A DNA stretch of 64,000 nt from Branchiostoma floridae (Eukaryota > Chordata > Leptocardii > Amphioxiformes > Branchiostomatidae). This document shows positions 4,761-47,400 of the stretch, piece after piece. Both the position numbers and the translations under genes were made by a program. The DNA lies in assembly GCF_000003815.2 (NCBI RefSeq), contig NC_049983.1, forward strand, positions 1,238,546 to 1,302,545, written 5' to 3'. Numbering within the stretch: position 1 is the stretch's first letter; the number at the start of each line of letters is the position of its first letter. Below the pieces are notes generated by a model, which worked only from the letters and a program-made list of their open reading frames with translations, was not told the origin of the DNA and ran no database searches.

Positions 4761-5063
4761 TTTAAGCTTTTAGACGACAGCGGGATCTAAAAAAACTATC
4801 ATTTTCCCCACGCAAATCTGTTGTTTATACATGTATTGTTGAAAGTTGCCGTCAGTCAGCAGTGGTGCGTAGTATATTTCTAAGTTCTCTGTTTCCTCAA
4901 TTCTGACCATACGTCATTCCAAACCTACCTGTAAAACAACTGTCTTCTGCCGGCTTTCCGCCATGTCACTTGAAAAGAGCAGTGAACACTTATATAAATC
5001 CTCATTGGCGATAATGTAAAAATTAGCAAGTTCAGGGTGTCATAATCTCATCCGTGAACATTC

Positions 5064-5989
5064 CAGGTCATAGGGTTTACGGAAAAGCCTGGGCCCAGGA
5101 GCTGGGCTGGCTAGCCTGAAAGACTACCTTTTCTGGGCCCCAAGGCTATGCATGGGGTTTGGCCTGCAGCCGGAAGTTTTTTTTTATAAAAACTGGGTCA
5201 ATGACAATCCAAGCTGTGGGTGGGATGGGGCTGGGATGGGGAAAGGTAACAGTTGGTCATATTGCTGGGCTTGCAATGAATAACTCAACCAATACTGAAA
5301 GAAAACAATCATAAACTAAATTCCAAGTGTACAATGTTCAGAAAATGCTGGAAATGTTAAGACTGAAGGGGAGGGGTACTAGGCGAAATAAAGAATACTA
5401 GGATCATCATGGGTCAGGAAATGATAGCGCACAACATCAAATTCAAAACAGATGTCTCACACTTTGAGTGAGTGTGTATTGACCATTGTGCATTGTGTGT
5501 AAATGCTGCATGCATGTGTGAGTGTGTGTGTGTGTGTGTTTGTACATGTACAACTTATAGTGCTGTCTGTGCTGTTCCTTTCTTATGTTCAGGATATGTG
5601 ACTGATCTGATAGACACCGTATTCCTTAGACCATATAGGCCTGACTGGCAGCACAGCCACAGGGGATGCAGGAAGTATCTTGTTCACGTTATTAATTGAA
5701 GGTTCACGTAGATGCTGGTTGTTCATTGCTTGATATAATTCCATCACCTCCATTCCCCATTAATGTGATAAGCTGTCACCATCCAGCCAGTTCACCCACA
5801 GCTGGGATTACATTTGACAAAGTTTTTCCTCAAGGAAATTCCACTGTGGCCCAAACCCAGTGCATTTAGGGCTTCAGAAAGGGTAGCATGACAACCCCCA
5901 TGCATACCCTTGGGGCCCAAAAAGGGTAGGCTGGCTACCCTGCAGGCTAGCCTGCTGGGCCCAGGCTTTTCCGTAAACCCCAGGTCATA
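5064..5989. mobile_element. Nonautonomous TIR element with 9-bp target duplication
   Basis: The element spans 5073-5980 (908 bp) and is flanked on both sides by the same 9 bases, CAGGTCATA. The first 26 bases (starting GGGTTTACGGAAAAGCC) match the reverse complement of the last 26 perfectly, and weaker complementarity continues for about 70 bases more. A 9-bp duplication with long terminal inverted repeats fits Mutator-like (MULE) elements better than hAT (8 bp) or piggyBac (TTAA). The interior has no transposase, only a TG microsatellite, so it is a derivative moved in trans. Superfamily assignment is inference. Confidence 0.7.
5519..5541. repeat. (TG)n microsatellite
   Basis: A short TG/GT run inside the TIR element at 5073-5980. 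The small ORF across it is not a gene. Confidence 0.8.
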
Positions 5990-6263
5990 CCCGGGTGAAA
6001 CAGCAGCCCGCTATCTCAAGTGTCCAAAAGTCTAATCTTTAAACTTTCTGACCGGCGGAAGGTCCCACAGCCTTCGTGTTTGCCGCCATCTTGGCATCAC
6101 GTGACCTCAAGTTAGGGACTGACCACTTCAAATTAGGGGTCAGCACAGGCTAAAAAAATCAACCAAAACCTTGTTTTTTTGCCTAATCTGAACGTCTGCA
6201 CCCTACACTGTCTCACCAATATGAAATGTTTCTAACATTTTCCTGCTACAAGTCGAAAATAGG

Positions 6264-6524
6264 CTAAAATACTCGATTTGGGCCTTCTGCGGCTGCGTCA
6301 ATTAGGGTCATTGCCCAAAACATGGCACTGAAGTAGGGGCAGCGAACAGAAAGAACAAACCGAATGGCAGGGAAACTGGCGGCCCTCGACTTCAAGGACG
6401 ACATCCTGCAGTACCCCATCCTTCTGTAATTCACCAATGTTGCAAAAAAAGACCATATAGTCGACGTCTTTGTAAGGAAACGGGCGAACTCCTTTGTGTT
6501 GATTTTCTTGCTCCGCGGCGCCAT
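6264..6524 (-). pseudogene. BTB/POZ-domain exon relic (kelch-like type)
   Basis: On the minus strand, pieces of a BTB/POZ domain are readable but spread over different frames. From an ATG at 6524 the text gives KKINTKEFARFLTKT. A second frame then gives GELQKDGVLQDVVLEVEGR and QFPCH. A third frame gives the typical VLSVRCPYFSAMF. The family normally reads through these blocks continuously (a degradation-adaptor or scaffold domain near the N-terminus of kelch-like proteins), so at least two frameshifts have broken it. No kelch repeats are visible downstream. The two frameshifts could in principle be sequencing errors, but the lack of any partner exon makes a dead fragment more likely. Confidence 0.6.
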
Positions 6525-8732: not shown

Positions 8733-11700
8733 ATGGCTCCAGTCCGGGCCCTGATAGTCGGTGCAGGGAACAGAGGAGAGGTGTATTCAAGGTTCTCCCT
8801 CGACAACAGTGAGCGTTTTCAGGTGGGTTACAGAACAACATGGAACAATCACCTGTATACAAAATGTACAACCATATCATCCCGATCCTCTATCTTGTAT
8901 TCACGTATATACAAACAGCTTAGGTTAGGAATGTCCCAGATTCAGACTTATAGCCATATTTGAGGATAGTCACACCTCAGGAATGTTACATTTCTTCAGG
9001 TGTGACTCTCCTCAAACATGGGACCTCTGGCTTTATCATTATGTGGAAGGTCACACTTACATGTATAAAAAAGAGTCATGGGTTCACCCCAGTGTGAGTG
9101 GTTCAATTACTTTACAGTCCTGCATACCTATGGCTTTTGCGTACCTATAGCCTCTGCATGCCTATAGCTTCTGCATGCCTATAGCTTCTGCATGCCTATA
9201 GCTTCTGCATGCCTATAGCTTCTGCATGCCTATAGCCTCTGCATGCCTATAGCTTCTGCATGCCTATAGCTTCTGCATGCCTATAGCTTCTGCATGCCTA
9301 TAGCTTCTGCATGCCTATAGCCTCTGCATGCCTATAGCTTCTTTATGCCTATAGCTTCTGCATGCCTATAGCCTCTGCATGCCTATAGCTTCTGCATGCC
9401 TATAGCTTCTGCATGCCTATAGCTTCTGCATGCCTATAGCTTCTGCATGCCTATAGCTTCAGTACAAATTGTTGTATTAGGCCTAAAGGCGGTTCGTCAA
9501 TTATGAAAAACAAGCAAAAGAGCTGCAGCATCAATTGGAAATACTGCATGCGCATCAGCTCCCTAGCTTCATTTTAAATTCTTATTTTCCATTCTTTTTC
9601 TCCCAGCTTTTGGAGAACATGAAATGATGTGTTTTTTTTTCTTTCATTCTGCAGGTGGTTGGTGTTGCTGACCCGCAGCTGTTCAGGTGCCAACGTTTAC
9701 AGCAGCAGTATAACATTCCTCAGGAGAATGTCTTCACAGATAAACCACACGTTACATTGTGTAACACCTGGTTGAATTCAATATATTGATAAAAGTAGAT
9801 CCATAAGATGGGAGATTTGTAATGACCAAGATGGATTCTCACAGAAGAACCATGTTATTATAAGTGAACAGCTGTTCTAAGAAGAACTTATAACTGTTCT
9901 TCGAAGAACTCATAACTATTCTAAGAAGAACTTATATACAGTAATATGTTTCTGCTAGAACAAAAATATGGTGCTGTAAGTTTATAAAAAGCTATCATAA
10001 TAAAAAAACTAGAAAGGCCGACATTTGCTTGAGAGCAAATACAGCATATTTCAGCCATCTCCCTCCTTATGTAACAATGGTTCTCCTGTCAGTTCGACAG
10101 ATGAGCAGGCAGACAGGCATTACCTGTTTTGCCTGACCTGCACATGACTTTTTATGGTGAAGGAGGGGCGTGCAATTCCTTCTCCACCCTCTCGTCTACT
10201 GGAGCACTAAGTCTCACAGGGACAGAACTGTTTGACACGTGTGAGACGGCTTCAGCAGATGCAGCTTTGTTTTTCGGAGTATCCGTCTCCTAGGAGGACT
10301 TCCGACCAAGGATGTAAGGGGTTCCTCCTGCCCCGTGTGCCATGGCGGGTGTGTCATGCCCGAACATGCCCCTAAGGCCTGTCTCGGCCACAAAGCCCCG
10401 CCAAGACCACTAGCCGCAGCTAGATACTCATTTACACCTGAGTTAAGTGAGGAAAGTCGTGTAAAGTGCCTTTCCCAAGGGCACAAGATCGGTGACACTG
10501 CAGTCGGATTCGAACCCGCAACCTCTCGGTCTCGAGCCGAATATGCTACCACTGCGCCACGCGGCCCCACTGTATGTAACAATAGACTGTTCCAAAATCA
10601 CTCATGTGCAAAAATGGAACACTTCTGCTTAAAATGACTTCTAACTACTAATCACACTTATGAGCAAAAATGAATCTTACAAAAACCCCTTCAAGAATGG
10701 ACTCAAAAAAATAGACGACTCCAAAAACACTTCCGCTAAGAAATGGAATTTGGAATCATCAGCCGTCCAAAACCATATTTGCAAAAAATCCCCCCTCTGT
10801 GCAAGAATCGACTCTTCCTGTTATACCCCTATGTAAAGTGGAGCGATCCAAAAATATAGCTAAAATAGTCAGCGAAGTCCACCAAATGAATTTTAAAAAA
10901 ATACCCCCTTCGNNNNNNNNNNNNNNNNNNNNNNNNNNNNNNNNNNNNNNNNNNNNNNNNNNNNNNNNNNNNNNNNNNNNNNNNNNNNNNNNNNNNNNNN
11001 NNNNNNNNNNNNNNNNNNNNNNNNNNNNNAAAAAAGTCCCCCGTGCATGAATGGGCTCTTCCAGATAAAACAAGGCTTGCTGATTGGCTGCCGAATCCTC
11101 CTCATGTACAGTCTTCAGGTGGAGGTAAACTTCCATTTAACAAATGGAATTCGGAATCATCACCCATGTCCAAAACTGATTTTTTTTAAATCCCCCCCTA
11201 TGTGCAAAAATGGACTGTCCCAGTAGTAGTCAAGTGGATCAGTGCGAAAACACTTCCGCTCAAAAAAACATTGGCATTATCACCAAAGTCTAAAAGTAAA
11301 TTTTAAAATACACCCCCTGTCCAACAATGGACTCTTCCAGCAAAATAAGCTCGCTCATTGGCTGGCCATTAATTGGATTCACCTTGTCCACCAACCACCT
11401 GGATGTCTATGGACTAGGTAGGTAGGTAGATAATTAGATCTACCTGGCACACCTGTGGCCCTGACACACCAGAATGACCTAGAGGTCGTTGACCTCGGCA
11501 CTCCAACCTTACCTATCCTAAACTCTCCCACAAAAACCTCCTTAAGGAGCCATTTTGATTTATACTACATATTATACATGGATCCTTTGAATAAGTATCT
11601 AGGGCACCTCTGTGCCAAATTTCAGGTCATTTGGATGTAATACCATGGTACAGGGGGCCAAAATATACAGTCTTGGTCCAAAAGTTGCAATAAAACCTCA

Positions 11701-12511
11701 ATAAAATCATTTAAGGAGCAGATATGAAAAAATTAAAAAAAACACATTTGGGTATTGGCCCACTCTACCCTTGTGCCAAATTTCAAGTCATTTGGTCCAG
11801 AAACGGCGGAGATGAATTGCTTTGAAAATTTGACAGGAGAAAGAAAGAAAGAAAGAAACATTACGAATACAATATATTTCACCATACCTATGGTATGGCT
11901 GAAATATAACAAGGCCTTCATGGAATAATGTTTGTTATGACTGTCAACTTATGCACACCTCCCGCAATTTATGCACACCTCCCGCAACTTATGCACACCT
12001 CCCGCATGTCCAGACTGGCAGCAGGCGGCGGAGAGGGAGAAGTTTGCCGACTGTGTTGTCATAGCAACCCCAGACCAGCATCACAAGGCTCCCGCCGTGG
12101 CGTTCGCTGACCGAGGCTACCACATACTTCTGGAGAAACCCATGGGAGTGCGTGGAAAATAAATTTTGTTTGACAGTAGCAAAAGAGAGGAGACAAGGCG
12201 ATCAGAGATGGCATACTTCAGACCCTTACCCATACTGCGTTGTAGCCCCAAAGACAAAAATAGCAGCACTGAGATATTGGCAATGCTGCATTGTGTATAT
12301 TGAAAAGCACTCACACACACATAGGTACACACATGCACAGACACACACAGAGATACACTGGCAGATACACACATACACCGATACACACAGAGATAAACTG
12401 GCAGATACACAAATACACCGATACACACAGACATACACACAGATACACACTTACTGTACACAGATACACAGATACACATATAGACACAGACACACACACA
12501 CACACAGAGAT

Positions 12512-12545
<34 letters not shown>

Positions 12546-15500
12546 ATACATATAACACACACACGCACCTTTATTCGTGGGGTAACCTAAATCTATTGTT
12601 TTTCGAAATAAATATTGACAGAAGATATTAATTTTCAAATTGCAAGATATATAAAAATGTTGAAAATATTGTTACCGTTGCTGTTGCATTTCCAGGTTAC
12701 AGAGTCAGATTGCCGTGAGATCGTGTCAGCCTGTGAGAGGAACAACGTCATCCTGTCAGTGTGCCACGTCAAATATTGTTACTGTTGCTCCTTACAGGTT
12801 ACAGAGTCAGACTGCCGTGAGATAGTGTCAGCCTGTGAGAGGAACAACGTCATCCTGCCAGTGTGCCACGTCAAATATTGTTACTGTTGCTCCTTACAGG
12901 TTACAGAGTCCGACTGTCGTGAGATAGTGTCCGCCTGTGAGAGGAACAACGTCATCCTGTCAGTGTGCCACATGAAATATTGTTACTGTTGCTCCTTACA
13001 GGTTACAGAGTCCGACTGTCGTGAGATAGTGTCCGCCTGTGAGAGGAACAACGTCATCCTGTCAGTGTGCCACGTCAAATATTGTTACTGTTGCTCCTTA
13101 CAGGTTACAGAGTCAGACTGGCGTGAGAAAGTGTCAGCCTGTGAGAGGAACAACGTCATCCTGCCAGTGTGCCACGTCAAATATTGTTACTGTTGCTCCT
13201 TACAGGTTACAGAGTCCGACTGTCGTGAGATAGTGTCCGCCTGTGAGAGGAACAACGTCATCCTGTCAGTGTGCCACATGAAATATTGTTACTGTTGCTC
13301 CTTACAGGTTACAGAGTCAGACTGCCGTGAGATAGTGTCCGCCTGTGAGAGGAACAACGTCATCCTGTCAGTGTGCCACATGAAATATTGTTACTGTTGC
13401 TCCTTACAGGTTACAGAGTCAGACTGCCGTGAGATAGTGTCCGCCTGTGAGAGGAACACTAGTGTCATCCTGTCAGTGTGCCACGTGAAATATTGTTACT
13501 GTTGCTCCTTACAGGTTACAGAGTCCGACTGCCGTGAGATAGTGTCAGCCTGTGAGAGGAACAACGTCATCCTGTCAGTGTGCCACGTGAAATATTGTTA
13601 CTGTTGCTCCTTACAGGTTACAGAGTCCGACTGCCGTGAGATAGTGTCCGCCTGTGAGAGGAACAACGTCATCCTGTCAGTGTGCCACGTGAAATATTGT
13701 TACTGTTGCTCCTTACAGGTTACAGAGTCCGACTGCCGTGAGATAGTGTCCGCCTGTGAGAGGAACAACGTCATCCTGTCAGTGTGCCACGTGCTGAGGT
13801 ACTATCCACCTGTCAGGAAGATCAAGGTCAGACAACCTTCAATGTTGTAAAACAGTTATTGCAAGCTCGTTTAAATCCTAAAAGATTGAAAGGATCCCAG
13901 ACACACTTTGTTGCAGTCCCCATGGTTTTTATTCTTCTTACCCTCTGTCCTCCACACACAACCTTCTTCTCTCAGGGTTGCTTCCAGACATAATGACCCT
14001 GTCCCCTGCCCCCTCCCCCTAATCTACTTCCTCCCAGCCAGGGATGATCCATCATACATCTGGGGAAAGGAAGTCAAGTCACATCTTGGGAAAGGAAGGG
14101 GAGACCACTTTGGCCATGCATTTTTTCATACACTAACTACTTACTATTCTAAGCATACAACGCATACAACAAGTCACCACTGTGAATTATCATGTTCGGT
14201 CTGATGTTCGTATTATTGAACATTGTCCTAATTTTTGTAGGAACTGATTGACAGTGGAGCCATTGGAGACATAGTTCACATCCAGCACATGGAAGCAGTG
14301 AGAACTATTTCTTTTTCATTTATATCCTAAGCTTGTAGTTTTACCTATTGAATAAGTTTAAATCATGTCTACTTCTATATAATGTGATATTTAGTATGTG
14401 TGCAATAGCTTTCCATGTATACATGTAGTATTACAGGTAACGCTAGTTCACATTTATCAGCAGGGTAACATATATTTTTCGTTGTTTCTAAAAACAAGGT
14501 ATTTAGCAATATCAAGTCAACAGTCGATCGTTTCAAACTGCATTATTTAAAAAAAAATCACAATCTGAATCCACCGGCCAAAGACAAAAACTACAATGGA
14601 TATAGGTCCACCCCGCACCCCCCGAATAAAGGTGAACTAAGTAAACGTTACACCCACTAACAGATTTCAAGTTTAATTGATTGTTTGATTGAATGTTTGT
14701 TTGATTGATTGATTGAATATTGATTGACACAGGAATTCCAGGACACAGGAATAGTGCTTACCTTTCTTACCCAACTCCCAGGTGGGATTCTGGCCCTTTC
14801 CACATGCCTTTGTACGTGGAAACTGGAGAAAAACTGACGACAGTAGCTTCTTGCTTCTCATCAAGAGCTGCCACGATGTCGATCTTATTACGTACTGGCT
14901 CCCTGAGTCAAGGTTAGATTCATAATGGCTGCTTGCTTGTATTAATGCCATGTTGGAACTACTAGTTAGTAACAAACGCCTGAACACAAAGACCATGGTA
15001 CCAACAGATTCTTTATTTTTCTTCTTTCACAATTCATTTTTTGATTTTGAAAGACTTTGCTCCAGATTCAAAATAAATTTTGTTAAAAGCGCAAGTCGGC
15101 AACAAAATCTGTACATTTTATGATAGGAAAAAAAGGTTTGAATGACATTAGTATCTGCCAATGGCCTTCTTGCATTATAATAATAGTAATGCTTTATTTG
15201 CCAGAAGCATTTCGCAGCCTTTCGGCTGAATTGTACACTCCTTTCACATGAGAATCAAAGACATGGAGTCAAAAACTGACTATTTGAAATATAATTAATA
15301 ATACAACTGGTAAAACACTATACTATACATGAAATGTACAGCCATTAGTTTATTTAAAGTATAAAAGTATTTAAAATACTATTGACATGATTTACCACAA
15401 TAAGATGAGCACAACGTTCCAAATGCTTCCTAATCTTGACCATTTTACATTGGCGGTCGATACAATACAAGAACATTAAAAGATTTAAAATTTGATGGGG

Positions 15501-18500
15501 TTTTCATTTACATATCAACTTAATAGAAGTGTTGTACATCATATAACTATGGTCGCGCTTGCAGCATTACTGTATTATTTACATTATGTTGGCATAAATC
15601 ACTTTTGGAAATGGACGAAAATTGATGCACCTTTGAGTGTCATCCATATTAAGTCAAATCAGCATGGCCCAATATGTTATGAATACTCATTGATAATTCT
15701 CCTTTACTGACTCGAAACTGGTGGAAGTCATGGAGGGCAGCAGCTGCTCACTTCTCTCCAAAAGCTGTCACGATGTTGACCTCATACGCTATTGGCTCAG
15801 TGGTGCAAGGTTTGGTGCTGGATGCTTGTATGCCTGCCAAACTTTCCAATGTTCAATTTATAAGTCATTATGTCAAGGGGAACATTGTTTTTGGTGTGTT
15901 CTTCTTGGCTTCTATCCTCTTCTTACGTAATGAACTAATCAGAGTTTCAAACTGCAAGTGGCATTTTAGCTGTTTCAGCAAGTAGGAACAATGCAGCGGT
16001 TGTTACAGTGAATATGAATGAATATAACCTGTAAAAGAAAAGTACCAAATTGAGCTTTGTGGACTTTTCTATTGGTGATGCCTCAAAGTCAAGCCCAATT
16101 TAGTATTGTGTGTAAATATCTTGATAAAAGGCAAATTATTGGGAATGTTGCGCTTCCAGATGAACTTACCATTTTCCCAATCACATGTATGTTCCCAAAT
16201 GTGTTTCGTTTTCGTTTTCATTACACAACTTCCTTTTAATTTTTCCGTAAACGTTTCGACGACTGTCTGTAGCCTTCATCAAAATTCTGTACTGATAAAG
16301 GCGACAGATAGAACTTTTAATTCCATGTGATTGTCTATTTATACAGGTGTGTCAAGGTGTCCTCCTTTGGCAGTCTCATGCACTTCAGGCACGAGAACAA
16401 GGTAAGAGTCACGTCGTTCAACTATCGTGCACTATATACTACATGTAACGGCAGTTCACCTTTCTCCGCATGGTAACCTATATCCGTTGCTTTTTAAAAC
16501 GCGATGTTTAGGTATATCTAGTCTACGTTGGTTTCAAATTGCAATATTTTCATAGCATTCCCGTCTGAAACAGCCGTCTGTCGAATTGATATCCCTAAAT
16601 ACTCCGATTTTATATACAACGGATAACGGTTACCCCAAGGATAAAGGTGAAGTACCGTTATATACAAACAGCAAATTTCCAAAGTACATGTGGGAAGTGG
16701 AAAGCTTAATAATGTATGCAGAATATTTTCCAGACATCTTTCGCTATCTTCAGGATAAAAAAAAGAAACAGTCATGGACACTAGAGCCATATAATAGTGG
16801 ATTGCTTACGGCTGTCACCTGACAGAAACCTTCACTGCAGATTAACATACATTGAAGATTATTGGTCTTGCAATAATGTAACAAGCAAGACGGAAGTTTT
16901 TTTACAACATGTAGTTTCCTTCCAGCCCGCAGGTGCAGCCAGCAGGTGTCTGGACTGCCAGGTGGAGAGCACCTGTCCTTACTCTGCCAAGAAGATCTAC
17001 CTGACGAGGGTGGAACAGGTGACATTACATACTTTTACAGGGCTTGAAATACCACCTGCATATGCAGGTTAGTGCAGGTAAGAGTTGGGCTGTGCAGGTA
17101 TAATTCTGACGCCTACCTGGACCTAACCTGCACCAGACTTTTGAGACTTGTCCTTAAGCTTGTAACTCCTATACATACTGCGGCATGTGAACGCTGCTTT
17201 ACTTTATAGAATGCACCAAAACAGCCTGGCAGTATTTACTATGTTCAAAAAGTTGCTTTATCCTCTTTTGGGATATAACGTTACATTATTTGAATGGTAC
17301 AGGTAACATTTTCTGGTACAGGTAATTTCAAAGGTTTTTGAGCCCTTTTTTAACACTTTAGGGTCTTGGAAGTAGTGTCACTATATTTAAAAGGTCTGAT
17401 TGGCAATTATCACTTGCTGACATGAAGCTATAATTTACCCCTTAGGACAAGGTTTATCACTTTAGCTACTTTTTCTAGTGTTTGTGATGGGCTGTCTCCA
17501 GCTTTAATTTTGTTTCATTGTTTTGGGACCCTTCATGTTCATTTTCATTGCTAAATCTGTCATTGATCTTTAGCCAATGAAAATATATTTTCATCAATTT
17601 TATGTAATGAAGTTCCAATTATTTGGATGGATGGGGTAAAATGTTAGTCTGTCTCAACAAAGGGATGTACATCCCTGCAGGATGGAGTGACGAGGTCTGG
17701 AGACATGTATACCGCTAGCACCGGTTTGTAAACCTTTTCTGATACTCTTTACAATTACCAGGCTGCCAGCCTTTTTAGCTTTATGTCAAAAGCTGAAGAA
17801 ACAATGGTTACAGAGTCGAATAAAGCAATTGTAAAAAAGCTGGCACCAGACTTTACAAAGCTGTGAAGAAAGAAACCAAGAGATGGTGTTGAATGTTGCA
17901 GATGATTAGTTAAGCAGACTTTATTTTTTTTAGGGAATAACGGGCTGGCCAGTCAGTGTAGTGTGTCCTCAGGAACCGGTGGATGTGGAGAGTCTAACCG
18001 AGGCTCTGAGAACTGGACCGTACGGACGTTGTGTGTACGAGTGCGACAACGACGTTGTTTCCAATCAGGTACATTCTGCTATTAACGACCTTTTCACATG
18101 TCCCAGTGGTACAAGTAGTAACGAAACCCCAATGCTTGGCCATTTGGATCAAATTCTGTGACCTGTGGGTCCAAGTAGGATCCTATAGTCGACTTCAGCT
18201 AAGACATGTTGTAACTTGTAAGGAATTACATTTGTCATTTTGGATGGTGACCTAAAGCAGGCGGGCTTGTGTATGCAGAAGCTTCAGGTGTAAGCCTCAA
18301 GTGTCAAACCTCTGCACGTAAAAGAATCCAACACACGTATCAAGAATTAGAAGAGTAAGCGATGACCAAAGTGTGCTTGGCCAAAGCACAAGCCGTTAGA
18401 GCAAAGCCACATCACACATAAAAAGCGGCATGCAAAGCCGATTTGAGCTTTCATGATTAAACAAACTTTAAGGTTTAAACAAACAAACAAACAAACACTA

Positions 18501-21500
18501 TTGGCCATTTAAAGGGGTGTTCTGTCAACCAGTGGAAGAATAGCTCTTTAGTGAGCTCAGCTGGTTGGAGATCACTTTTACATTCTGTGAGATTTTAACA
18601 AGAAAAATGTTGAAAGAATTTTAATGATTCAGGTGTAAAAAATACATTTTTTTTCTATTTTCAGTTTATAGCCAACAACAGGAGCTTTTTGATTCACAAC
18701 CTTGTAATTGTCTTGATTTTGTTTTCCATTGAACCACCTTGAATTGTACTCTTTGACTAATAAATCTTGGTTTAAAATCTCGGGTCAATTTAGATGTCAG
18801 TCCAGTCACTGAAGAAATACTGCAGATGTTGCCGAAAACATCTGTTTCTTGAGTTACTGTTTCCTTACATAGTACCTAGTAGGCAAATGTTGTAGCAACT
18901 TGTAGTAGTATTCAGCAACCTGTACTGATTTTAAGCATGACCTTTCTTTTTACATGAATATCTAGGTGGTTAACTTCCAGTTTGACGGTGGCCAGACGGC
19001 TTCCTTCAACATGGTGGCCTTTACTCAGGAGATCTGTGAGCGACAGACCAGGATCTCAGGAACCAAGGTAATTTTATATGTATAATTTGTGGAGTGTCGT
19101 GTAATGGCAGCGTGTTTGGCTTAGAACCAAATGATCCCGGGTTCTAATCCTGTCATATCACCGACCATTTGCCATTGGGAAAGGCACTTTACATGACTTC
19201 TCATTTCAGTCAGGTGAAAATGAGTACCTAGCTCTCGTTTCGGGACCACCCCTCGGATTGGACATTTGATGGAGTCCCATGTTTGGTTAGAGACACACTT
19301 CAAGCACGTAAAGAACCCCACGGTTTTCAAGAAGTGTAAGGATCCTCTCCTGGGATGGTGTAAGATGACAAAAATCATTCCGGGCAAATAGGCTAGAGTG
19401 TTATCCCGAGCAGCCTTCGTAACTTCTGCTTCGACTATCAAGTCAGTTATAATTAGTCAAGCTTGCTCAATGTTTCTGACATGGGGAGATGCTGCTACAG
19501 TGAGCATCATTTCAGTGTTGAGGAGAGATGCTGCTACAGTGAGCATTATTTTAGTGCTGAGAAGAGATGCTGCTACAGTGAGCATTATTTCAGTGCTGAG
19601 GAGAGATGCTGGTACAGTGAGCATTATTTCAGTGCTGAGGAGAGATGCTGGTACAGTGAGCATCATTTCAGTGCTGAGGAGAGATGCTGCTTCAGTGAGC
19701 ATCATTTCAGTGCAGATGAGAGATGCTGCTACTTTGAGCATTATTTCAGTGCTGAGGAGAGATGCTGCTACAGTGAGCATTATTTCAGTGCTGAGGAGAG
19801 ATGCTGCTACAGTGAGCATTATTTCAGTGCTGAGGAGAGATGCTGCTACAGTGAGCATTATTTCAGTGCTGAGGAGAGATGCTGGTACAGTGAGCATCAT
19901 TTCAGTGCTGAGGAGAGATGCTGCTTCAGTGAGCATCATTTCAGTGCAGAGGAGAGATGCTGCTACAGTGAGCATTATTTCAGTGCTGAGGAGAGATGCT
20001 GCTACAGTGAGCATTATTTCAGTGCTGAGGAGAGATGCTGCTACAGTGAGCATTAGCTCATTGCCGAGAAGTGGTCTATATGGTCTTGCACTAAGAAACG
20101 TTTTAAAAATTAAAGATTTTCCAGTAACTCAATTAACAGAAAATCTGGTTGGTAAATTACTAAATCATTCTTTATTCAATACAAAGGATCTACGTCCAGC
20201 TGATATTTCAATGACGTTCTGGTTTCAATGACTTTATGCCATCAGGGAAATAATGACTCAGGTTCACTGGTGCTCTGCAGTTATAAGTGCCACAGATAAC
20301 TAGCTAGAGCAAGCTTAGCTGTTGAAAATGAGTCTATGCTTGTTGTATTGCTCATCTCATATTCCCATGTTGTATCCTTCCATCCAGGGTGAGCTACGCT
20401 GCTCCGGACCAGGCCCCGTGTATGTCTATGACTTCCTGACGCAGACGTCCACGGAGCATCGCTGTGCAGTGGCGCCCCCTAGCAGGATGGGTGATATGCA
20501 CGGCGGTGCAGACTTCTTCCTCATGGATGCCTTTGTAAAGGCTGTACAGGTAAGGTTATATAAAGTGGGAAAAGATGAGAAGCAAACTTTAGAGCGTTGG
20601 AGAGGTTCATCACTTACGTATGTATCCAGTTACATGTACTATCAATTTTTTTTACAACAGTGACTGTTTTAAAGGTACCGCAAAATTTTCGATGTCTGAC
20701 AGCACATCTTGGTCACGGAGAATGGCCTAGTCTTGATCTCGCGAGAGAACACGAGACTAGGCCAAGCTTGCGTAGATCATCTGCCACCTCCCCCCAGGAC
20801 TTGGGGAGCTCCAAATGAACCGCAATGAGGGTTAGGATATCCCCAAGTCCTACCTACCCCTTCTCCGTAAGATCTCCGTTTGATGTGTTAAAAAATTCCT
20901 ATTTCCCCAGAACTATCGTAGAGTGGAATATGTTATCGCCAAACACAGTAGGGGCGTCTTCTCTGGATAGTTTTAAAGAACACTTGCAGATAGATGTGCA
21001 AAAGTTAGGTGTGACTAGTCATTCTGTGTAATATAACCAGCTGCTGCCGCGCCGCCTGCCTGCGAAGCTGGTGTGTTACGCCGAAGGGCGGTTATACCGG
21101 CTATATAGATACAGATACAGAAGCCTGGCCTTGTTTCTTCTTTTGTATTTTGTGATATACTGTGTATTATGTGATATATTGTGTATTATGAGCATTTCTA
21201 AGGAAAGTTAGAACAAAATGTATATGAGCATCTATATGAGGCAACTATGGCATAATATAGTTGCATTCATTGAACTGTCATGACAGATGAAGAACAAGAA
21301 GTACACACCAGCAAAAAAATATGATTCCCCTATCTAGAAACATACTTTCAAATTGTTCAACTGTATCGTAATATGTATCACTAGAGTTTGGGCCAGCCAC
21401 CAGCCTAAAAATTACAAGAAAACGAAAGATAATAATAGGGTCGGTAGCTACCGACCCTATTTTTTCTGGACTGAAACAGGAAACACAACATTTATATAGG

Positions 21501-22015
21501 CCTAACCATAATCCTCTAAGCCACAGGATGTCAGTGTTGACGGAGTATACTGATATGCGTTCCTACCACATACATTTATTTGCAGTACATTCAACAGCTT
21601 AATATGTAAGATAAAAACATCAAAACATTAACCTCTGGGATTGCCGACAACAGAGAGAAATTGAGGAAGCTTAAATCGTCTTCTCTGCCTCCAACCGAAC
21701 TGTTTTCATCCCCAACTGTGCACCTAATGCTCTAATTCTAAATAACGATTTACCTCTAGCACTCCACCATCAGGCTATTTACCGTTGCCTACTGATAATC
21801 AAAGGAAGTCATTAATAATGAGTAGTAGATTTAACATGATTTTTGGTTTTAGAAAATTACATTATTTTGTGTCATCCTTTCAGAGCGGTGACCGGTCCGA
21901 GGTACTGACCGGACCACAGGACACCTTGCAGAGCCACCTGCTGGTGTTTGCTGCCGAGCAGGCTCGACTTCAGGACAAAGTCATGACTGTACACCTAGAC
22001 GGCTCCTATAGCTAA
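8733..22015 (+). CDS. Gfo/Idh/MocA-family oxidoreductase (StrI-like), 12 exons
   Basis: NAD(P)-dependent sugar/polyol-type dehydrogenase by family; substrate unknown. Exons: 8733-8822, 9655-9739, 12014-12147, 13719-13826, 14241-14297, 14782-14912, 16347-16401, 16926-17018, 17934-18068, 18966-19067, 20388-20549, 21884-22015. Together they give 1284 bases, 427 residues plus TAA, with phases matching at every junction. Residues 10-15 are the Rossmann loop GAGNRG, 75-81 read IATPDQH, and 99-101 are the EKP motif holding the family's catalytic lysine. KSCHD sits at 186-190 and a cysteine cluster [11 protein letters not shown] at 227-237, as in StrI-type relatives. The ATG is chosen because the Rossmann strand starts four residues later. 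No signal peptide, so probably cytosolic. Oddities: the exon 2 donor is AT rather than GT, exon 4 is an 11-fold array, and the last exon is followed by two decayed copies of its end. Confidence 0.88.
8958..9016. repeat. Inverted repeat (hairpin) in intron 1
   Basis: TGAGGATAGTCACACCT is followed about 20 bases later by its near-complement AGGTGTGACTCTCCTCA. Related phrases (GAGGTGTGGCTCTCCTC) recur in the array at 36600-39400, so it may be a mobile-element end. Confidence 0.45.
9122..9462. repeat. 17-bp minisatellite in intron 1
   Basis: About 19-20 copies of a unit reading GCATGCCTATAGCTTCT, with a recurrent CTTCT/CCTCT variant. It lies inside the first intron of the oxidoreductase gene and has no coding role. 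Confidence 0.9.
9740..9766 (+). promoter_or_regulatory. Non-GT donor of exon 2 with in-frame backup donor
   Basis: Family similarity (VFTD followed by WQQ) and phase place the end of exon 2 at 9739, but the next bases are ATAAAC instead of GT. A GTAACA donor 21 bases downstream (exon end at 9760) is in the same phase and has no stop before it. Using it would insert seven residues between VFT and WQQ and change the split codon to Tyr. Either the genome carries a G-to-A change or base error at the first donor, or the second donor is used. Confidence 0.6.
9784..10281. other. Intron 2, 5' part, unassigned
   Basis: Contains a short inverted pair of AGAAGAACTTATA-type repeats near 9870-9940 and no coding exon. 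Confidence 0.4.
10282..10572 (-). mobile_element. tRNA-derived SINE
   Basis: On the minus strand the 5' part resembles a tRNA: TGGCGCAGTGG fits an internal A box and GGTTCGAATCC fits a B box, with tRNA-like spacing. The body includes AAAGGCACTTTACACGAC, a phrase shared with the related copies at 19088-19345, 25545-25710, 36110-36238 and 39990-40190. It lies in intron 2. It should not be annotated as a functional tRNA, because no 3' acceptor stem closes. Confidence 0.7.
10600..11360. repeat. Degenerate short repeats around an assembly gap
   Basis: The sequence repeats phrases such as ATGGACTCTTCCAG and AACACTTCCGCT on both sides of the gap at 10913-11029 (117 unknown bases). The ORFs crossing the gap are artefacts. 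Confidence 0.5.
10913..11029. other. Assembly gap (117 N)
   Basis: Run of undetermined bases in intron 2 of the oxidoreductase gene. Confidence 1.
11510..11900. repeat. Unclassified dispersed repeat with AGAA tract and hairpin end
   Basis: The phrase CTGTGCCAAATTTCAGGTCATTTGG occurs in two variants about 155 bases apart (first 20 bases: CTGTGCCAAATTTCAGGTCA). An AGAAAGAAAG tract follows. The 3' side ends in an inverted pair around TTTCACCATACCTATGGTATGG. Looks like a mobile-element remnant; family not recognised. Confidence 0.4.
11947..12006 (+). repeat. 20-bp minisatellite abutting the exon 3 acceptor
   Basis: Three copies of ACTTATGCACACCTCCCGCA (first base varies), ending eight bases before exon 3 starts at 12014. 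The pyrimidine-rich part of the unit forms the tract in front of the acceptor AG at 12012-12013. Confidence 0.9.
12300..12565. repeat. (CA)n-rich microsatellite in intron 3
   Basis: Imperfect CACACA with interspersed GATACACA and GGCAGATACA units. The long ORFs on both strands here are made only of repeat-encoded residues. A fragment with ACCTTTATTCGTGGGGTAAC follows at 12566-12600 and is related to the small MITE ends at 14438-14650 and 16446-16660. Confidence 0.9.
12696..13826 (+). repeat. Eleven-fold tandem array of exon 4 with splice acceptors
   Basis: Ten units of 102 bp (one is 105) and a final complete unit. Each starts with GTTACAGAGTC directly after a CAG, carries 75 coding bases of exon 4 ([17 protein letters not shown]... 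to VCHV), then 27 bases ending in TGTTGCTCCTTACAG, which is the intron tail and acceptor. The eleventh unit (13719-13826) continues through [11 protein letters not shown] to a GT donor and is the canonical exon. Because 102 is a multiple of three and no stop intervenes, splicing from exon 3 into any of the acceptors keeps the frame and would add 34 residues per extra unit. Differences are few: C-to-W and I-to-K in unit 5, M for V in three units, and one extra codon in unit 8. The nearly uniform copies indicate recent expansion. Confidence 0.92.
13827..14240 (+). other. Intron 4
   Basis: No repeat or exon recognised. It ends in ATTTTTGTAG at the acceptor for exon 5. Confidence 0.6.
14438..14650. 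mobile_element. Small TIR element (MITE), copy 1, in intron 5
   Basis: Left end TAACGCTAGTTCAC, right end GAACTAAGTAAACGTTA, imperfect inverted repeats of about 40 bases; the inner parts AGGGTAACATATAT and ATATAGGTCCACCC also match in inverted order. The same family is at 16446-16660. No coding capacity. Confidence 0.55.
15170..15480 (-). mobile_element. Possible LINE 3' UTR remnant
   Basis: ATAATAGTAATGCTTTATTTGCC reads on the minus strand as a 3' tail with AATAAA-like and ATT repeats (first 20 bases: ATAATAGTAATGCTTTATTT). It sits in intron 6. No ORF remains. Confidence 0.35.
15711..15809 (+). pseudogene. Decayed second copy of exon 6 of the oxidoreductase
   Basis: This stretch reads [20 protein letters not shown] in one frame and RNW in another, matching the true exon 6 at 14782-14912 ([20 protein letters not shown] and GNW). 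It ends in GCAAG followed by GTTTGG, a donor in the same phase as exon 6. There is a two-base indel between the two blocks, and no acceptor AG precedes it. It is therefore a truncated, frame-shifted exon duplicate inside intron 6 and not a usable exon. It could derive from a once mutually exclusive exon. Confidence 0.7.
16446..16660. mobile_element. Small TIR element (MITE), copy 2, in intron 7
   Basis: Ends TAACGGCAGTTCACCTTT and the inverted AAAGGTGAAGTACCGTTA, about 43 bases of good complementarity (GGTAACCTATATCCGTTG against CAACGGATAACGGTTACC). 215 bp, no coding. Same family as 14438-14650. Confidence 0.7.
18250..18780. other. Intron 9, unassigned repeat-like part
   Basis: A segment near 18250-18480 ends in AAACAAACAAAC and looks like a retroelement remnant, but there is no diagnostic end or ORF. 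Confidence 0.3.
19088..19345 (+). mobile_element. tRNA-derived SINE
   Basis: Plus-strand copy in intron 10: GTGTAATGGCAGCGTG (A-box-like) and CCCGGGTTCTAATCC (B-box-like), then the shared body phrase GGGAAAGGCACTTTACATGA. More diverged than the copy at 10282-10572. Confidence 0.6.
19486..20058. repeat. 39-bp minisatellite in intron 10
   Basis: About 14-15 copies of a 39-bp unit containing GATGCTGCTACAGTGAGCAT and TTTCAGTGCTGAGGAGA. Since 39 is a multiple of three and the unit lacks stops in several frames, long ORFs appear on both strands; none is supported as a gene. It lies between exons 10 and 11. Confidence 0.92.
20825..21116 (+). mobile_element. 5'-truncated LINE 3' end
   Basis: The reading [11 protein letters not shown] followed by LDSFKEHL is the C-terminal tail typical of CR1/L2-like ORF2 proteins. 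It is followed by a GC-rich 3' UTR (CTGCCGCGCCGCCTGCC) and ends in an ATACAG microsatellite at 21106-21120, as expected for a 3'-anchored retrotransposed copy. It lies in intron 11. No endonuclease or reverse transcriptase part remains. Confidence 0.7.
21434..21461. repeat. 28-bp perfect palindrome
   Basis: AATAGGGTCGGTAG and its exact reverse complement CTACCGACCCTATT meet with no spacer. It sits in intron 11 between the LINE remnant and exon 12. Could be a hairpin or a mobile-element scar. Confidence 0.9.
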
Positions 22016-40190: not shown

Positions 40191-41080
40191 TTAAATTGCA
40201 TAGTTTCAATTGGCATGGATTCTGCCAGGTTTGCAGCTTTTAACTAATGACAAAGGAGTGTCTTAGTGGTTCTTCTCCGTATGAAAATCGATATTCTTAT
40301 CAGACCGTAAGTGTTCAGGCTTATAGTTTTACATCATGTGGAATACAAAGTAAAAGTTAGTTCTCCTAACGAGTTTTGGCACTAGCAATACTATCAAATT
40401 CGACACAAAGACAACAAACACGGGTGTGTGGTACCAAAACTGCACATCACTAAAAGCTTCCAAGCAAATGCACATAAACAGTAAACGTAACTAAGCGATC
40501 TGTTCTAGCTGTTTTGCAGCATTTCTACATAATAACACAATAGCACAAAGTTTCGCGCACCTGTACATAGTAACACAATAAAGAAAAATTCCGCGGCACC
40601 TCTACATACATGTAAGGAAGTAGAATATGTCTGCATTAGAAATACAACATAAGGTAAGTTGTAGGTTACATGTAAGAAAAAAATTGCACCCTATAGTAAA
40701 GCTATACTGAACGTAGTGATGTTTCTACCGAATGTACGTTATATCTAGTACAGTAATTAGAAATAAGTTAGTACACTAGAAACATACATTAAAAGCCTTC
40801 GAACAAAATAAAATTTGGTGGTTTGAATCAGAATATGACAAAGTTACTATCAAAACAATTATTACTATATAGGCTTGGTAGCAATTTGCACTGATAATAT
40901 TCCGTAATACACCAATATTCCACAATGTTCCACAGCCAGCCTTACTGCCTCATGTCATCTTTTCAAATCTCATCTCCTAAATTGCCTCTGACTCTGACGA
41001 TTGTAAACTGCAGATATGACGGCCACCGTGTCAAACACAATTACTGCAAAAACCTTCCAAACATCCTCAACAGAACCCCG
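40191..41080. other. Unassigned sequence
   Basis: Low GC, many short A-rich runs, no coding exon, no terminal repeats and no tandem structure noticed before the satellite begins. Confidence 0.4.
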
Positions 41081-41815
41081 AGGTTTTGTCTCTAACACGT
41101 TAACATGTCTGATACACTATAACATTATCCACAGAACCCTGAGGTTTTGTCTCTAACAGGTTAAACATGTCTGACACATTGTAACATTCTCCACAGAACC
41201 CTGAGGTTTTGTCTCTAACAGGTTAAACATGTCTGACACACTGTAACATTCTCCACAGAACCCAGAGGTCTTGTCTCTAACAGGTTAAACATGTCTGACA
41301 CACGGTAACATTCTCCACAGAACCTTGAGGTTTTGTCTCTAACAGGTTAAACATGTCTGATACACTATAACATTCTCCAAAGAACCCAGAGGTCTTGTCT
41401 CTAACAGGTTAAACATGTCTGACACACGGTAACATTCTCCACAGAACCATGAAGTTTCCTCTAACACGTTAACATGTCTGATACACTATAACATTATCCA
41501 CAGAACCCCGAGGTTTTGTCTCTAACAGGTTAAACATGTCTGACACACTGTAACATTCTCCACAGAACCTTGAGGTTTTGTCTCTAACAGGTTAAACATG
41601 TCTGACACACGGTAACATTCTCCACAGAACCCAGAGGTCTTGTCTCTAACAGGTTAAACATGTCTGATACACTATAACATTCTCCACAGAACCCAGAGGT
41701 CTTGTCTCTAACAGGTTAAACATGTCTGACACACGGTAACATTCTCCACAGAACCCTGAGGTTTTGTCTCTAACAGGTTAAACATGTCTGACACACTGTA
41801 ACATTTTCCACAGAA
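41081..41815. repeat. 62-bp satellite, array A (about 12 units)
   Basis: Unit contains GAGGTTTTGTCTCTAACAGG, TTAAACATGTCTGACACACT and GTAACATTCTCCACAGAACC. Variants (CAGAGGTCTTG, CACGGTAAC, GATACACTATAAC) recur in runs, indicating unequal exchange and conversion. Most units contain AAACATGTCT. Confidence 0.92.
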
Positions 41816-42905
41816 CCCCTCAGGCAGTTTAAGGCATGTGACAATTTTGATCGAACATGAAATTGGAACCACTGCGTGACCGCATGTGACCTTGACGGAC
41901 CGGACGGTCCAATGTCAGTATCTAATGTTACATTGCGAAAACAGGAACGTACGTTGCATGGGTCACACTAAATACTTTTCTTGAGACTTATTAATGTTGA
42001 ATATTAAAGATATTGGCCTAGTATTTATCAAATATTGATATAACCAGTTGCGGTTAATAAAAAGGGACCCCCGTGAGAGCCACTTATGGTACCGTCCGAA
42101 CATTCGAACACGCGTTCGGATTCCCCGGGTATAGAGTGGCGGGAAAACAACGGGGCGCGCATACTTCAAGGAAACAGCAAAATAATGCTAAAAATCGATA
42201 TTTCTAGCCCATAATGATTGTATGGCAGTTGACTGATGCCTTACAAGGCTAACTGCTTGCGAATTTCGCATTTATACAGCAGCGATTTGACAGATACAGG
42301 CATATATGAAACATTCATGCTTTACCATCGGTTAACGTTACGTACAGTGAAACATACTTTGGCGCAGTTCTTGTAGGGTAAGTATTGTTTCGTCGGCTGC
42401 TGCCCACATCAGGATACCGGTTGTACGACGAGTTTTGAGCCGATTTACGTTCATTTAGCCTTAGACCTTCGGAAATCAAGCGGGCCTTCTTGCAATATCT
42501 TTGATTTTGGTTGCTGTGTTGATATTAGTACAAAAAATGCCCCAAAATTATCAAAAAAGTATGTTTTTGCCCCAAAATAAAGCCTTACCGATGTATAGCG
42601 GCAAAAGGCCCGGGCACATTAGATATCACAGAGATGTAATCTGTTACTCCAGAAAATATGACTCTGTTAGACAGTCATTTCATAGTGGGCACAGACCCGT
42701 TTTAATAGCATCACTATTTTTTATCAAAAAATGATTTTTTAACCCAAAATATTCAGAATCTAGAATTTTCTTGTCATCTAATTTTGAATATGGGTAAATT
42801 ACGTCAACTGGCCCTACTTTGTTGAAAACTGATGGTTACATCGAAAGTTACAGCCATATAACTGCTAGACTGAAGTATATGCGGGTGTCACAGGCCTTAA
42901 ACTGC
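41816..42905. repeat. Satellite spacer, copy 1
   Basis: About 1090 bp, almost identical to 43344-44434 and 45426-46400. It includes GTGACCTTGACGG, a CpG-rich stretch with TGGCGGGAAAAC and CGGGGCGCGC, and a minus-strand 68-codon ORF (42169-41963) starting MKYARPVVFPPLY that is identical in all three copies. Since the surrounding noncoding text is just as conserved, identity does not show coding function. Confidence 0.9.
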
Positions 42906-43343
42906 TTGAGCCTGAGGTTTTGTCTCTAACATTTTAAACATGTCTGACACACTGTAACATTCTCGACAGAAGCCTGAGATTCTGTCTCTGACAGGTTAAA
43001 CATGTCTGACACACTGTAACATTCTCCACAGAAACCTGAGGTTTTGTCTCTAACATGTTAAACATGTCTGACACACTGTAACATTCTCCACAGAACCCAG
43101 AGGTCTTGTCTCTAACAGGTTAAACATGTCTGACACACGGTAACATTCTCCACAGAACCTTGAGGTTTTGTCTCTAACATGTTAAACATGTCTGACACAC
43201 TGTAACATTCTCCACAGAACCCAGAGGTCTTGTCTCTAACAGGTTAAACATGTCTGACACACGGTAACATTCTCCACAGAACCCTGAGGTTTTGTCTCTA
43301 ACAGGTTAAACATGTCTGACACACTGTAACATTTTCCACAGAA
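42906..43343. repeat. 62-bp satellite, array B (about 7 units)
   Basis: Same unit as array A. Its first unit (CTCGACAGAAGCCTGAGATT) and the last two units are shared with array C and array A, which supports duplication of array plus spacer as a block. Confidence 0.92.
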
Positions 43344-44434
43344 CCCCTCAGGCAGTTTAAGGCATGTGACAATTTTGATCGAACATGAAATTGGAACCAC
43401 TGCGTGACCGCATGTGACCTTGACGGACCGGACGGTCCAATGTCAGTATCTAATGTTACATTGCGAAAACAGGAACGTACGTTGCATGGGTCACACTAAA
43501 TACTTTTCTTGAGACTTATTAATGTTGAATATTAAAGATATTGGCCTAGTATTTATCAAATATTGATATAACCAGTTGCGGTTAATAAAAAGGGACCCCC
43601 GTGAGAGCCACTTATGGTACCGTCCGAACATTCGAACACGCGTTCGGATTCCCCGGGTATAGAGTGGCGGGAAAACAACGGGGCGCGCATACTTCAAGGA
43701 AACAGCAAAATAATGCTAAAAATCGATATTTCTAGCCCATAATGATTGTATGGCAGTTGACTGATGCCTTACAAGGCTAACTGCTTGCGAATTTCGCATT
43801 TATACAGCAGCGATTTGACAGATACAGGCATATATGAAACATTCATGCTTTACCATCGGTTAACGTTACGTACAGTGAAACATACTTTGGCGCAGTTCTT
43901 GTAGGGTAAGTATTGTTTCGTCGGCTGCTGCCCACATCAGGATACCGGTTGTACGACGAGTTTTGAGCCGATTTACGTTNNNNNNNNNNNNNNNNNNNNN
44001 NNNNNNNNNNNNNNNNNNNNNNNNNNNNNNNNNNNNNNNNNNNNNNNNNNNNNNNNNNNNNNNNNNNNNNNNNNNNNNNNNNNNNNNNNNNNNNNNNNNN
44101 NNNNNNNNNNNNNNNNNNNNNNNNNNNNNNNNNNNNNNNNNNNNNNNNNNNNNNNNNNNNNNNNNNNNNNNNNNNNNNNNNNNNNNNNNNNNNNNNNNNN
44201 NNNNNNNNNNNNNNNNNNNNNNNNNNNNNNNNNNNNNNNNNNNNNTTTTTATCAAAAAATGATTTTTTACCCCAAAATATTCAGGATTCTAGAATTTTTC
44301 TTGTCATCTAATTTTGAATATGGGGTAATTACGTCAACTGGCCCTACTTTGTGAAAACCTGATGGTTTCATCGAAAGTTACAGCCATATATCTGTTAGAC
44401 TGAAGTATATGCGGGTGTCACAGGCCTTAAACTG
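43344..44434. repeat. Satellite spacer, copy 2, with gap
   Basis: Second spacer copy; the middle is the gap 43980-44245 (266 N). After the gap it matches copy 1 with a few substitutions (TGGTTTCATCG for TGGTTACATCG). Confidence 0.9.
43980..44245. other. Assembly gap (266 N)
   Basis: Undetermined bases inside spacer copy 2; the corresponding part of copy 1 is 42452-42717, about the same length. Confidence 1.
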
Positions 44435-45425
44435 CTTGAGCCTGAGGTTTTGTCTCTAACATCTTAAACATGTCTGACACACTGTAACATTCTCGACAGA
44501 AGCCTGAGATTCTGTCTCTGACAGGTTAAACATGTCTGACACACTGTAACATTCTCCACAGAAACCTGAGGTTTTGTCTCTAACATGTTAAACATGTCTG
44601 ACACACTGTAACATTCTCCACAGAACCCAGAGGTCTTGTCTCTAACAGGTTAAACATGTCTGACACACGGTAACATTCTCCACAGAACCTTGAGGTTTTG
44701 TCTCTAACATGTTAAACATGTCTGACACACTGTAACATTCTCCACAGAACCCAGAGGTCTTGTCTCTAACAGGTTAAACATGTCTGACACACTGTAACAT
44801 TCTCCACAGAACCCCGAGGTTTTGTCTCTAACAGGTTAAACATGTCTGACACACTGTAACATTCTCCACAGAACCCAGAGGTCTTGTCTCTAACAGGTTA
44901 AACATGTCTGACACACGGTAACATTCTCCACAGAACCTTGAGGTTTTGTCTCTAACAGGTTAAACATGTCTGACACACTGTAACATCTTCACAGAACCAT
45001 GAAGTTTCCTCTAACACGTTAACATGTCTGATACACTATAACATTATCCACAGAACCCTGAGGTTTTGTCTCTAACAGGTTAAACATGTCTGACACATTG
45101 TAACATTCTCCACAGAACGTTAAGGTTTTGTCTCTAACAGGTTAAACATGTCTGACACACGGTAACATTCTCCACAGAACCATGAGGTTTTGTCTCTAAC
45201 AGGTTAAACATGTCTGACACACGGTAACATTCTCCACAGAACCTTGAGGTTTTGTCTCTAACAGGTTAAACATGTCTGATACACTATAACATTCTCCACA
45301 GAACCCAGAGGTCTTGTCTCTAACAGGTTAAACATGTCTGACACACGGTAACATTCTCCACAGAACCCTGAGGTTTTGTCTCTAACAGGTTAAACATGTC
45401 TGACACACTGTAACATTTTCCACAG
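44435..45425. repeat. 62-bp satellite, array C (about 16 units)
   Basis: Same unit; includes the short variant with CATGAAGTTTCCTCTAACAC also found in array A. Confidence 0.92.
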
Positions 45426-46400
45426 AACCCCTCAGGCAGTTTAAGGCATGTGACAATTTTGATCGAACATGAAATTGGAACCACTGCGTGACCGCATGTG
45501 ACCTTGACGGACCGGACGGTCCAATGTCAGTATCTAATGTTACATTGCGAAAACAGGAACGTACGTTGCATGGGTCACACTAAATACTTTTCTTGAGACT
45601 TATTAATGTTGAATATTAAAGATATTGGCCTAGTATTTATCAAATATTGATATAACCAGTTGCGGTTAATAAAAAGGGACCCCCGTGAGAGCCACTTATG
45701 GTACCGTCCGAACATTCGAACACGCGTTCGGATTCCCCGGGTATAGAGTGGCGGGAAAACAACGGGGCGCGCATACTTCAAGGAAACAGCAAAATAATGC
45801 TAAAAATCGATATTTCTAGCCCATAATGATTGTATGGCAGTTGACTGATGCCTTACAAGGCTAACTGCTTGCGAATTTCGCATTTATACAGCAGCGATTT
45901 GACAGATACAGGCATATATGAAACATTCATGCTTTACCATCGGTTAACGTTACGTACAGTGAAACATACTTTGGCGCAGTTCTTGTAGGGTAAGTATTGT
46001 TTCGTCGGCTGCTGCCCACATCAGGATACCGGTTGTACGACGAGTTTTGAGCCGATTTACGTTCATTTAGCCTTAGACCTTCGGAAATCAAGCGGGCCTT
46101 CTTGCAATATCTTTGATTTTGGTTGCTGTGTTGATATTAGTACAAAAAATGCCCCAAAATTATCAAAAAAGTATGTTTTTGCCCCAAAATAAAGCCTTAC
46201 CGATGTATAGCGGCAAAAGGCCCGGGCACATTAGATATCACAGAGATGTAATCTGTTACTCCAGAAAATATGACTCTGTTAGACAGTCATTTCATAGTGG
46301 GCACAGACCCGTTTTAATAGCATCACTATTTTTTATCAAAAAATGATTTTTTAACCCAAAATATTCAGAATCTAGAATTTTCTTGTCATCTAATTTGAAT
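45426..46400. repeat. Satellite spacer, copy 3, ends in gap
   Basis: Third spacer copy with the identical 68-codon ORF at 45781-45575 (minus). It is cut off by the 100-N gap at 46401-46500. Confidence 0.9.
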
Positions 46401-46674: not shown

Positions 46675-47400
46675 TACTGACGAAAGATTGAGGAAACGAG
46701 AGATGAAAGGGACAGATTAACAACATTGAACTGCTACAACAGTTACTACTACTACCAGAGATGGAGAAAGGGAGCGATTGAGAAAGGGGGATTGAGAAAT
46801 GGAGAGACTGAGAGAGGGAGAGATTGAGAAATGGAGAGATTTAGAAAGTGAGAGATTGAGAAAGGGAGAGATTGAGAAAGGGTGAGATTGATAAAGAGAG
46901 AGATGTTGAGAAAGGAAGAGAGATTGTGAAAGGGAGCGGAGAGATTGAGAAAGGGACAGATTGAGAAAGGGAGAGATGTTGAGACGGAGAGAGGTTGCGA
47001 AAGGGAGAGATTGAGAAAGGGAGTGAGGTTGAGAAAGGGACAGATTGAGGAAGGGGCAGATTGAGAAAGGTTGAGATTAAGAAAGGGAGAGAGGTCGAGA
47101 CAGGGAGAGAGGTTGAGAAGGGGAGAGATCTAGAAAGGGAGTGATTTAGAAATGGAGCGATTTAGAAGGGAGAGAGGTTGAGACAGGTAGAGAGGTTGAG
47201 AAACGGAGAGATCTAGAAAGGGAGAGATTTAGAAAAAGAAAGATTGAGACGGAGAGATGGAGATCGACAACGGGAGAGAGGTTGAGAAAGGGAGGGATTA
47301 AGAAAGGGAGAGAGATTAAGAAAGGAAGAGATTTGGATGGAAGAGAGACTGAGATGGAGAAAGATTTTATTGAGAAAGGGGATTTGAGAAAGGGAGAGAA
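46675..47400. repeat. Polypurine tract, GAGA-rich, about 700 bp
   Basis: The plus strand is almost free of pyrimidines except single T in GAGATTGAGAAAGGG-type units. It follows the last exon of the lectin/ZP gene and would be in or just beyond its 3' UTR. Long purine strands of this kind can form triplex DNA; that is established for such sequences in general, not shown here. The minus-strand ORF that runs into it is a consequence of the repeat. Confidence 0.9.
47366..47371 (-). terminator. Candidate poly(A) signal of the lectin/ZP gene
   Basis: AATAAA on the minus strand, 88 bases after the TAG at 47459-47461. It is the only clear hexamer before the polypurine tract. Confidence 0.45.

Follow-up and report, generated by a model that had tools for sequence, protein, structure and literature searches.

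An in-frame array of splice acceptors at exon 4 of an amphioxus oxidoreductase gene is very probably a mirage minisatellite

The window, a stretch of 64,000 bp (C5:1238546-1302545) in a genome of which 513 Mb in 431 contigs were searched, carries on its forward strand a gene for a Gfo/Idh/MocA oxidoreductase. Its exons are exon 1 with the start codon (8733-8822), exon 2 (9655-9739), exon 3 (12014-12147), the final complete exon 4 (13719-13826), exon 5 (14241-14297), exon 6a (14782-14912), exon 7 (16347-16401), exon 8 (16926-17018), exon 9 (17934-18068), exon 10 (20388-20549), and exon 11 with the stop codon (21884-22015). The joined exons encode 393 residues with an N-terminal NAD-binding Rossmann domain (PF01408, 78.5 bits against a cut-off of 24) and the C-terminal domains of the family (PF22725, 32.3 bits, cut-off 27; PF02894, 26.7 bits, cut-off 22.9). 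The best PDB match of the protein is 6z3b, and in the alignments shown (two chains of 6z3b, of 72 sequences matched) exon 3, the final exon 4, and exon 5 join without gaps. Exon 3 (134 bp, as in the three paralogs B, C, and D) ends in ...EKPMG and is followed by the donor GTGCGT and an intron of phase 0; the final exon 4 (108 bp, VTESDC...VRKIK, donor GTCAGA) is backed by the paralogs and by 6z3b. All exons are preceded by AG and followed by GT, the exceptions being the positions before exon 1 and after exon 11 and the donor of exon 2, which is AT (9740-9741) in the window copy vs. GT in the paralogs. In our reading of the sequence, GTAACA lies in frame 21 bp downstream of this AT, and the window copy therefore need not be dead.

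With the last repeat unit and the final exon 4 as DNA query two more loci were found on the same contig, and a peptide query led to one locus on contig C14. The window copy is referred to as paralog A, and the others as B (C5:2.765 Mb), C (C5:1.171 Mb, minus strand), and D (C14:8.370 Mb). Over exons 1-9 (with exon 6a; exon 10 was tabulated separately for A, B, and C only, and exon 11 was omitted), the pairwise Ks of A, B, and C is 0.15-0.16, that of each with D 0.64-0.80, and Ka/Ks among A, B, and C ranges from 0.10 to 0.24. Exon 11 of paralog C was not found in the stretch examined. Private changes in exons 1-9 (amino-acid-changing:synonymous) number 17:16 in A, 3:12 in B, and 7:14 in C, the contrast of A with B and C combined being borderline (Fisher p 0.052). 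Exon 6 is paired in B and C (6a and 6b, both 131 bp and of equal phase; in B at 9210-9340 and 9886-10016 of L009+L010), and each pair may represent mutually exclusive exons. In the window copy this second exon 6 is degraded (about 15700-15811, with acceptor and 5' part lost), and in D 6a and 6b both match a single place. Because of its private changes, its AT donor, and its degraded second exon 6, paralog A seems to be under the weakest constraint among the three array-bearing copies, and it is here that the longest array stands. Two further features were observed within the window gene. Intron 9 contains a 39-bp array of 14.6 copies (19486-20055) that is open in three frames, and the stretch 10081-10571, which includes a tRNA-Ser call on the minus strand (10494-10566), has relatives at another place in B and C and is perhaps, given that location, a dispersed tRNA-derived repeat.

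The start of exon 4 belongs to a tandem array on the forward strand (12693-13793; TRF period 102, 10.8 copies, 96% matches, score 1993), which is far beyond chance. Each array unit combines 75 bp from the start of exon 4 with a 27-bp acceptor tail downstream of them, and with the final exon included the assembly shows 11 copies, so that the repeat spans the exon-intron boundary of an exon that is itself backed by paralogs and homology. There are 11 instances of the string CAGGTTACAGAG in the window, and exon-4 starts are found at 12696, 12798, 12900, 13002, 13104, 13206, 13308, 13410, 13515, 13617, and 13719, that is, nine spacings of 102 bp and one of 105 bp. The left edge is formed by a first, diverged intron tail with the first acceptor (12661-12695), which has a counterpart in paralog B and is truncated in C. 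Units 1-7 (12696-13409) have 102 bp each, unit 8 (13410-13514) has 105 bp due to 3 extra bp in its exonic part, and units 9 and 10 (13515-13718) again have 102 bp each. The tail, AAATATTGTTACTGTTGCTCCTTACAG, is invariant at all ten places preceding acceptors 2-11, and the one preceding acceptor 1 is a diverged version of it. The splice signal is repeated with the unit, since CAG followed by GTTACAGAG is present in all 11 copies. In conceptual translation every one of the 11 acceptors is in the frame of exon 3 and stop-free through exon 10, and depending on the acceptor used the insert has 0 to 341 residues. The original prediction of an exon-4 array with eleven in-frame acceptors, each with its own CAG, is thus borne out. 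Its 105-bp unit exists as well, the 102-bp units being nine rather than the ten that its wording could mean; the conceptual range of 0 to 10 inserts also stands, except that one of them has 35 and not 34 residues.

Arrays of the same unit stand at the matching place in the three paralogs of one contig and are absent from the 20 kb examined around the fourth, on another contig. There are 11 copies in A, 6 in B (spacings 102, 102, 95, 102, and 102 bp), and 4 in C (102, 104, and 102 bp), where copy 1 is without acceptor and exon start; in D, exon 4 is present once. The final exon 4 has 108 bp in all four, and 36 of 36 encoded residues are identical among A, B, and C. Just left of the array, the intron sequence of both B and C is TTTGTG followed by AAATATGG, and that of the exon at the unit end is CACGTG followed by CTGAGG, so that GTG is common to both ends of the duplicated segment; the left flank in A is TTG followed by AAAATATTG. 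Visual comparison shows similar first tails in A and B, distinct from the unit tails, and this points to a single origin of the arrays predating the split of A, B, and C, with inter-locus conversion as the alternative. We infer that the array arose before these three paralogs separated, by a duplication with the short GTG at both ends (as in B and C), and that it would then have expanded and contracted through unequal exchange or conversion, carrying along the 5' part of the real exon. Over the 75 exonic bp, final exon and last internal unit are identical in A (A10 = A11) and in B (B5 = B6), but C3 differs from C4, and turnover therefore seems to include the real exon.

The exonic 75 bp of the 21 copies show 15 variant states, counted with the altered codon of A unit 8 (the codon insertion) and the first 18 bases of C copy 1 (the deletion) masked. 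All four variants that separate the three final exons are synonymous. Of the 11 array-only variants, 6 are synonymous and 5 amino-acid-changing, against a neutral expectation of 24-28% synonymous (p = 0.026, 0.041, and 0.062 at transition weights of 1, 2, and 4, respectively), and among those confined to A synonymous changes account for 2 of 5. This synonymous excess could be a weak sign of constraint, hinting at translation of the units, and could equally be explained by spread from real exons. In A, variable sites are found at 0 of 27 tail positions vs. 9 of 75 exonic positions, a difference that is not significant (Fisher p 0.11).

The reading frames of the three arrays differ. In paralog B, acceptors 1-3 of the six shift the frame and reach a stop and acceptors 4-6 are open, and C has three intact acceptors, of which the first leads out of frame and to a stop and the remaining two are open (conceptual translation). 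Only array A is in frame throughout, and array translatability is therefore not kept among the paralogs. Paralog C even does without its first acceptor. Use of the last acceptor yields the conserved protein in each of A, B, and C, and with it the conceptual joining of exons 1-10 gives a collinear protein in all four paralogs; that of D has an in-frame stop in exon 8 (in this assembly; L026) and one extra codon in exon 10.

The last acceptor is not singled out by sequence alone. A crude scoring matrix, derived from 32 acceptors in these genes, gives 13.3 for each of acceptors 2-11 of A and 8.3 for the first; those of B score in order 9.8, 12.2, 13.3, 3.2, 12.2, and 12.2, and the intact ones of C 13.3, 8.3, and 13.3. 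Its value for the single exon-4 acceptor of D is 5.1, which shows the matrix to be weak. In NAGNAG-type acceptors the competing AGs lie a few nucleotides apart, and the window acceptors, at 102-105 bp from each other, are not of this type. The position relative to the downstream donor does differ, as the exon formed with it would have 108 nt from the last acceptor vs. 1131 nt from the first, and the exon-definition rule would favor the former.

Taken together, we consider the exon-4 array to be an acceptor-side mirage minisatellite, a further member of a published amphioxus class, with a probability of roughly 0.85. Mirages are amphioxus minisatellites across exon/intron boundaries with duplicated splice signals (PMC3087553), and the mirage passages of that paper, which cite Adh3 (Canestro et al., 2002) and other mirage loci, describe those of Adh3 and the globins as appearing not to interfere with regular splicing. 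The corresponding passage on PGBD5 (PMC3902484) also cites mirages of Adh and troponin C and holds regular splicing to be undisturbed. The spliceosome would join exon 3 to the last acceptor, which together with the downstream donor defines the normal 108-nt exon, and the internal units would be removed together with the intron. Because the 102-bp period is a multiple of three, the window array would be translatable by coincidence. Of the two roles originally offered for the array, that of a hypervariable minisatellite whose last acceptor is used gains support from the 11, 6, and 4 copies of the paralogs, the 95- and 104-bp spacings, the deletion of one first acceptor, and the identical protein of the final exons. 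The other, a source of length isoforms, does not, as only the A array is fully in frame and A shows signs of relaxed constraint.

A minor addition compatible with the mirage reading is that the last acceptor dominates and its neighbors are used at a low level as functionless noise. The identical tails before acceptors 2-11 cannot tell these acceptors apart, and the last three acceptors of B and the last two of C are in frame, which would allow for such leakage; other mirages are, however, reported with regular splicing in the passages cited above (PMC3087553; PMC3902484), and we regard leaky splicing as somewhat unlikely. Quite improbable is a generator of length isoforms, in which several acceptors are used and the protein gains between 0 and 10 inserts, each of 34 residues apart from one of 35. 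It could draw on the 11 in-frame, stop-free acceptors of the window copy, on the tail that is invariant in ten of ten copies, and on the mild synonymous excess of the array-only variants. Repeat-retaining transcripts are also known from human cases, according to the part of PMC2812944 concerned with them, so that occasional use of an inner acceptor is conceivable. Against it stand the sister arrays, in which spacings of 95 and 104 bp disrupt the frame and one of which is without its first acceptor, as well as the position of the insert, which would interrupt a segment aligned collinearly in four paralogs and gapless relative to 6z3b, and the seemingly least constrained state of the very copy that has the open array, as judged from the private changes and their borderline p value. 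The reading frames of the paralog arrays led us to reject length isoforms as the main reading. We find it very doubtful that several of the eleven window acceptors are truly used and that an unstable copy number would lengthen or shorten a Rossmann-domain enzyme by 34 residues at a time.

Long near-identical units are difficult to assemble, yet an assembly artefact is highly improbable, as the units bear distinct variants and arrays of other sizes, with variants of their own, are present at the matching place in two further loci. Hardly credible, finally, are tandem mini-exons, cf. the published mirage intron-gain model, with units as 72-nt exons and the GT in CAC/GTNAAA as donor: GT is found at the donor place in seven of the ten internal units of A (GTG in 3, GTC in 4), and CACGTGAAA and CACGTCAAA score 5.3 and 3.8, respectively, with a matrix built from 35 real donors (range 2.2 to 12.1 over 36 scored sites, one of them the AT site), but three of the ten units have ATG at this place, the intron between adjacent units would be 30 nt, which is too short, and the final exon requires the last acceptor regardless.

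The window contains many other arrays. Eighteen of them, the exon-4 array included, were hand-picked from 55 TRF rows for a period of at least 17 bp and about 3 copies or more, overlapping rows being merged and simple or short-period arrays, such as the one of 16 bp at 46757-47333, and two-copy arrays being excluded. Eight of these 18 have one or more of their six frames open, among them the 39-bp array of intron 9 with its three open frames, and an open frame was for this reason rejected as evidence of coding. Expansion of an exon start together with its acceptor also has precedents, namely the published amphioxus mirages. A second mirage lies in the window on the donor side, at the 3' end of a ZP-N domain exon (51283-52162, minus strand), and consists mostly of 67-bp units with a GTAAG donor each. 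The exon itself (PF23344; start at 52268, minus strand) has 12 exact GGTAAGTTCCT donors including its own, with 8 of the 11 spacings being 67 bp. Elsewhere, one 62-bp unit recurs in three arrays within 4.4 kb (41060-41818, 42911-43346, and 44441-45430), and arrays of related 39-40 bp units are found near exons for galactose-binding domains (F5/F8 type C-like) at 54355-54470, 56637-56826, and 59068-59394, the minus-strand units of the last one containing GAGGTAAGG.

Since the mirage class has already been published, the biological novelty of the exon-4 array is modest. Mirages nevertheless lend themselves to testing how the splicing machinery selects one of many near-identical acceptors, and the oxidoreductase locus suits such a test, with one acceptor array in three paralogs, 11, 6, and 4 copies, and one first acceptor deleted. 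As turnover seems to include the real exon, to which A10 and B5 are identical in their 75 exonic bp, arrays of this kind may feed changes into coding exons.

Several known systems resemble the array described here. At an Adh3-like exon of the same genome (L031), with human class III alcohol dehydrogenase as best PDB match, there is an acceptor-side 59-bp array of 6.9 copies (5464-5868) and, at the opposite end of the exon, a donor-side 33-bp array of 9.8 copies (6054-6377). These are of the published kind, their identity with the arrays of Canestro et al. (2002) being presumptive, and unlike the unit of exon 4 the 59 bp of the acceptor array are not a multiple of three and shift the frame. A 26-bp array with TTTACAG units (5028-5275) in the same locus reaches the apparent preceding exon. 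The 60- and 108-bp repeats of lancelet PGBD5 also overlap splice sites, according to the repeat passage of PMC3902484, with 2 and 3 copies in one assembly and 7 and 6 in another. In contrast to the repeats here they abut 5' splice sites and have fewer copies, and an additional exon annotated from part of the 108-bp repeats was omitted by the authors. In human segmental duplications, as far as the tandem-repeat section of PMC2812944 describes them, the copy number likewise differs between recent paralogs and repeats can sit at exon-intron boundaries, and 66% of the repeat-related intron changes are also supported as a repeat-keeping transcript; unlike the situation proposed here, such repeats are thus often retained in an alternative transcript. 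A further comparison is with the globins BflGb6 and BflGb9, for which the mirage passages of PMC3087553 describe tandem repeats across the exon-intron boundary on both acceptor and donor sides, BflGb6 having the intron 3' end and the 5' part of the exon repeated as in exon 4. The copy numbers of the globin mirages vary as well (6 and 3 between haplotypes), and their units are longer (150-160 bp vs. 102 bp). Relative to these globin mirages as described there, the oxidoreductase array stands out in that the same mirage is present in three paralogs and in that the window copy is in frame throughout.
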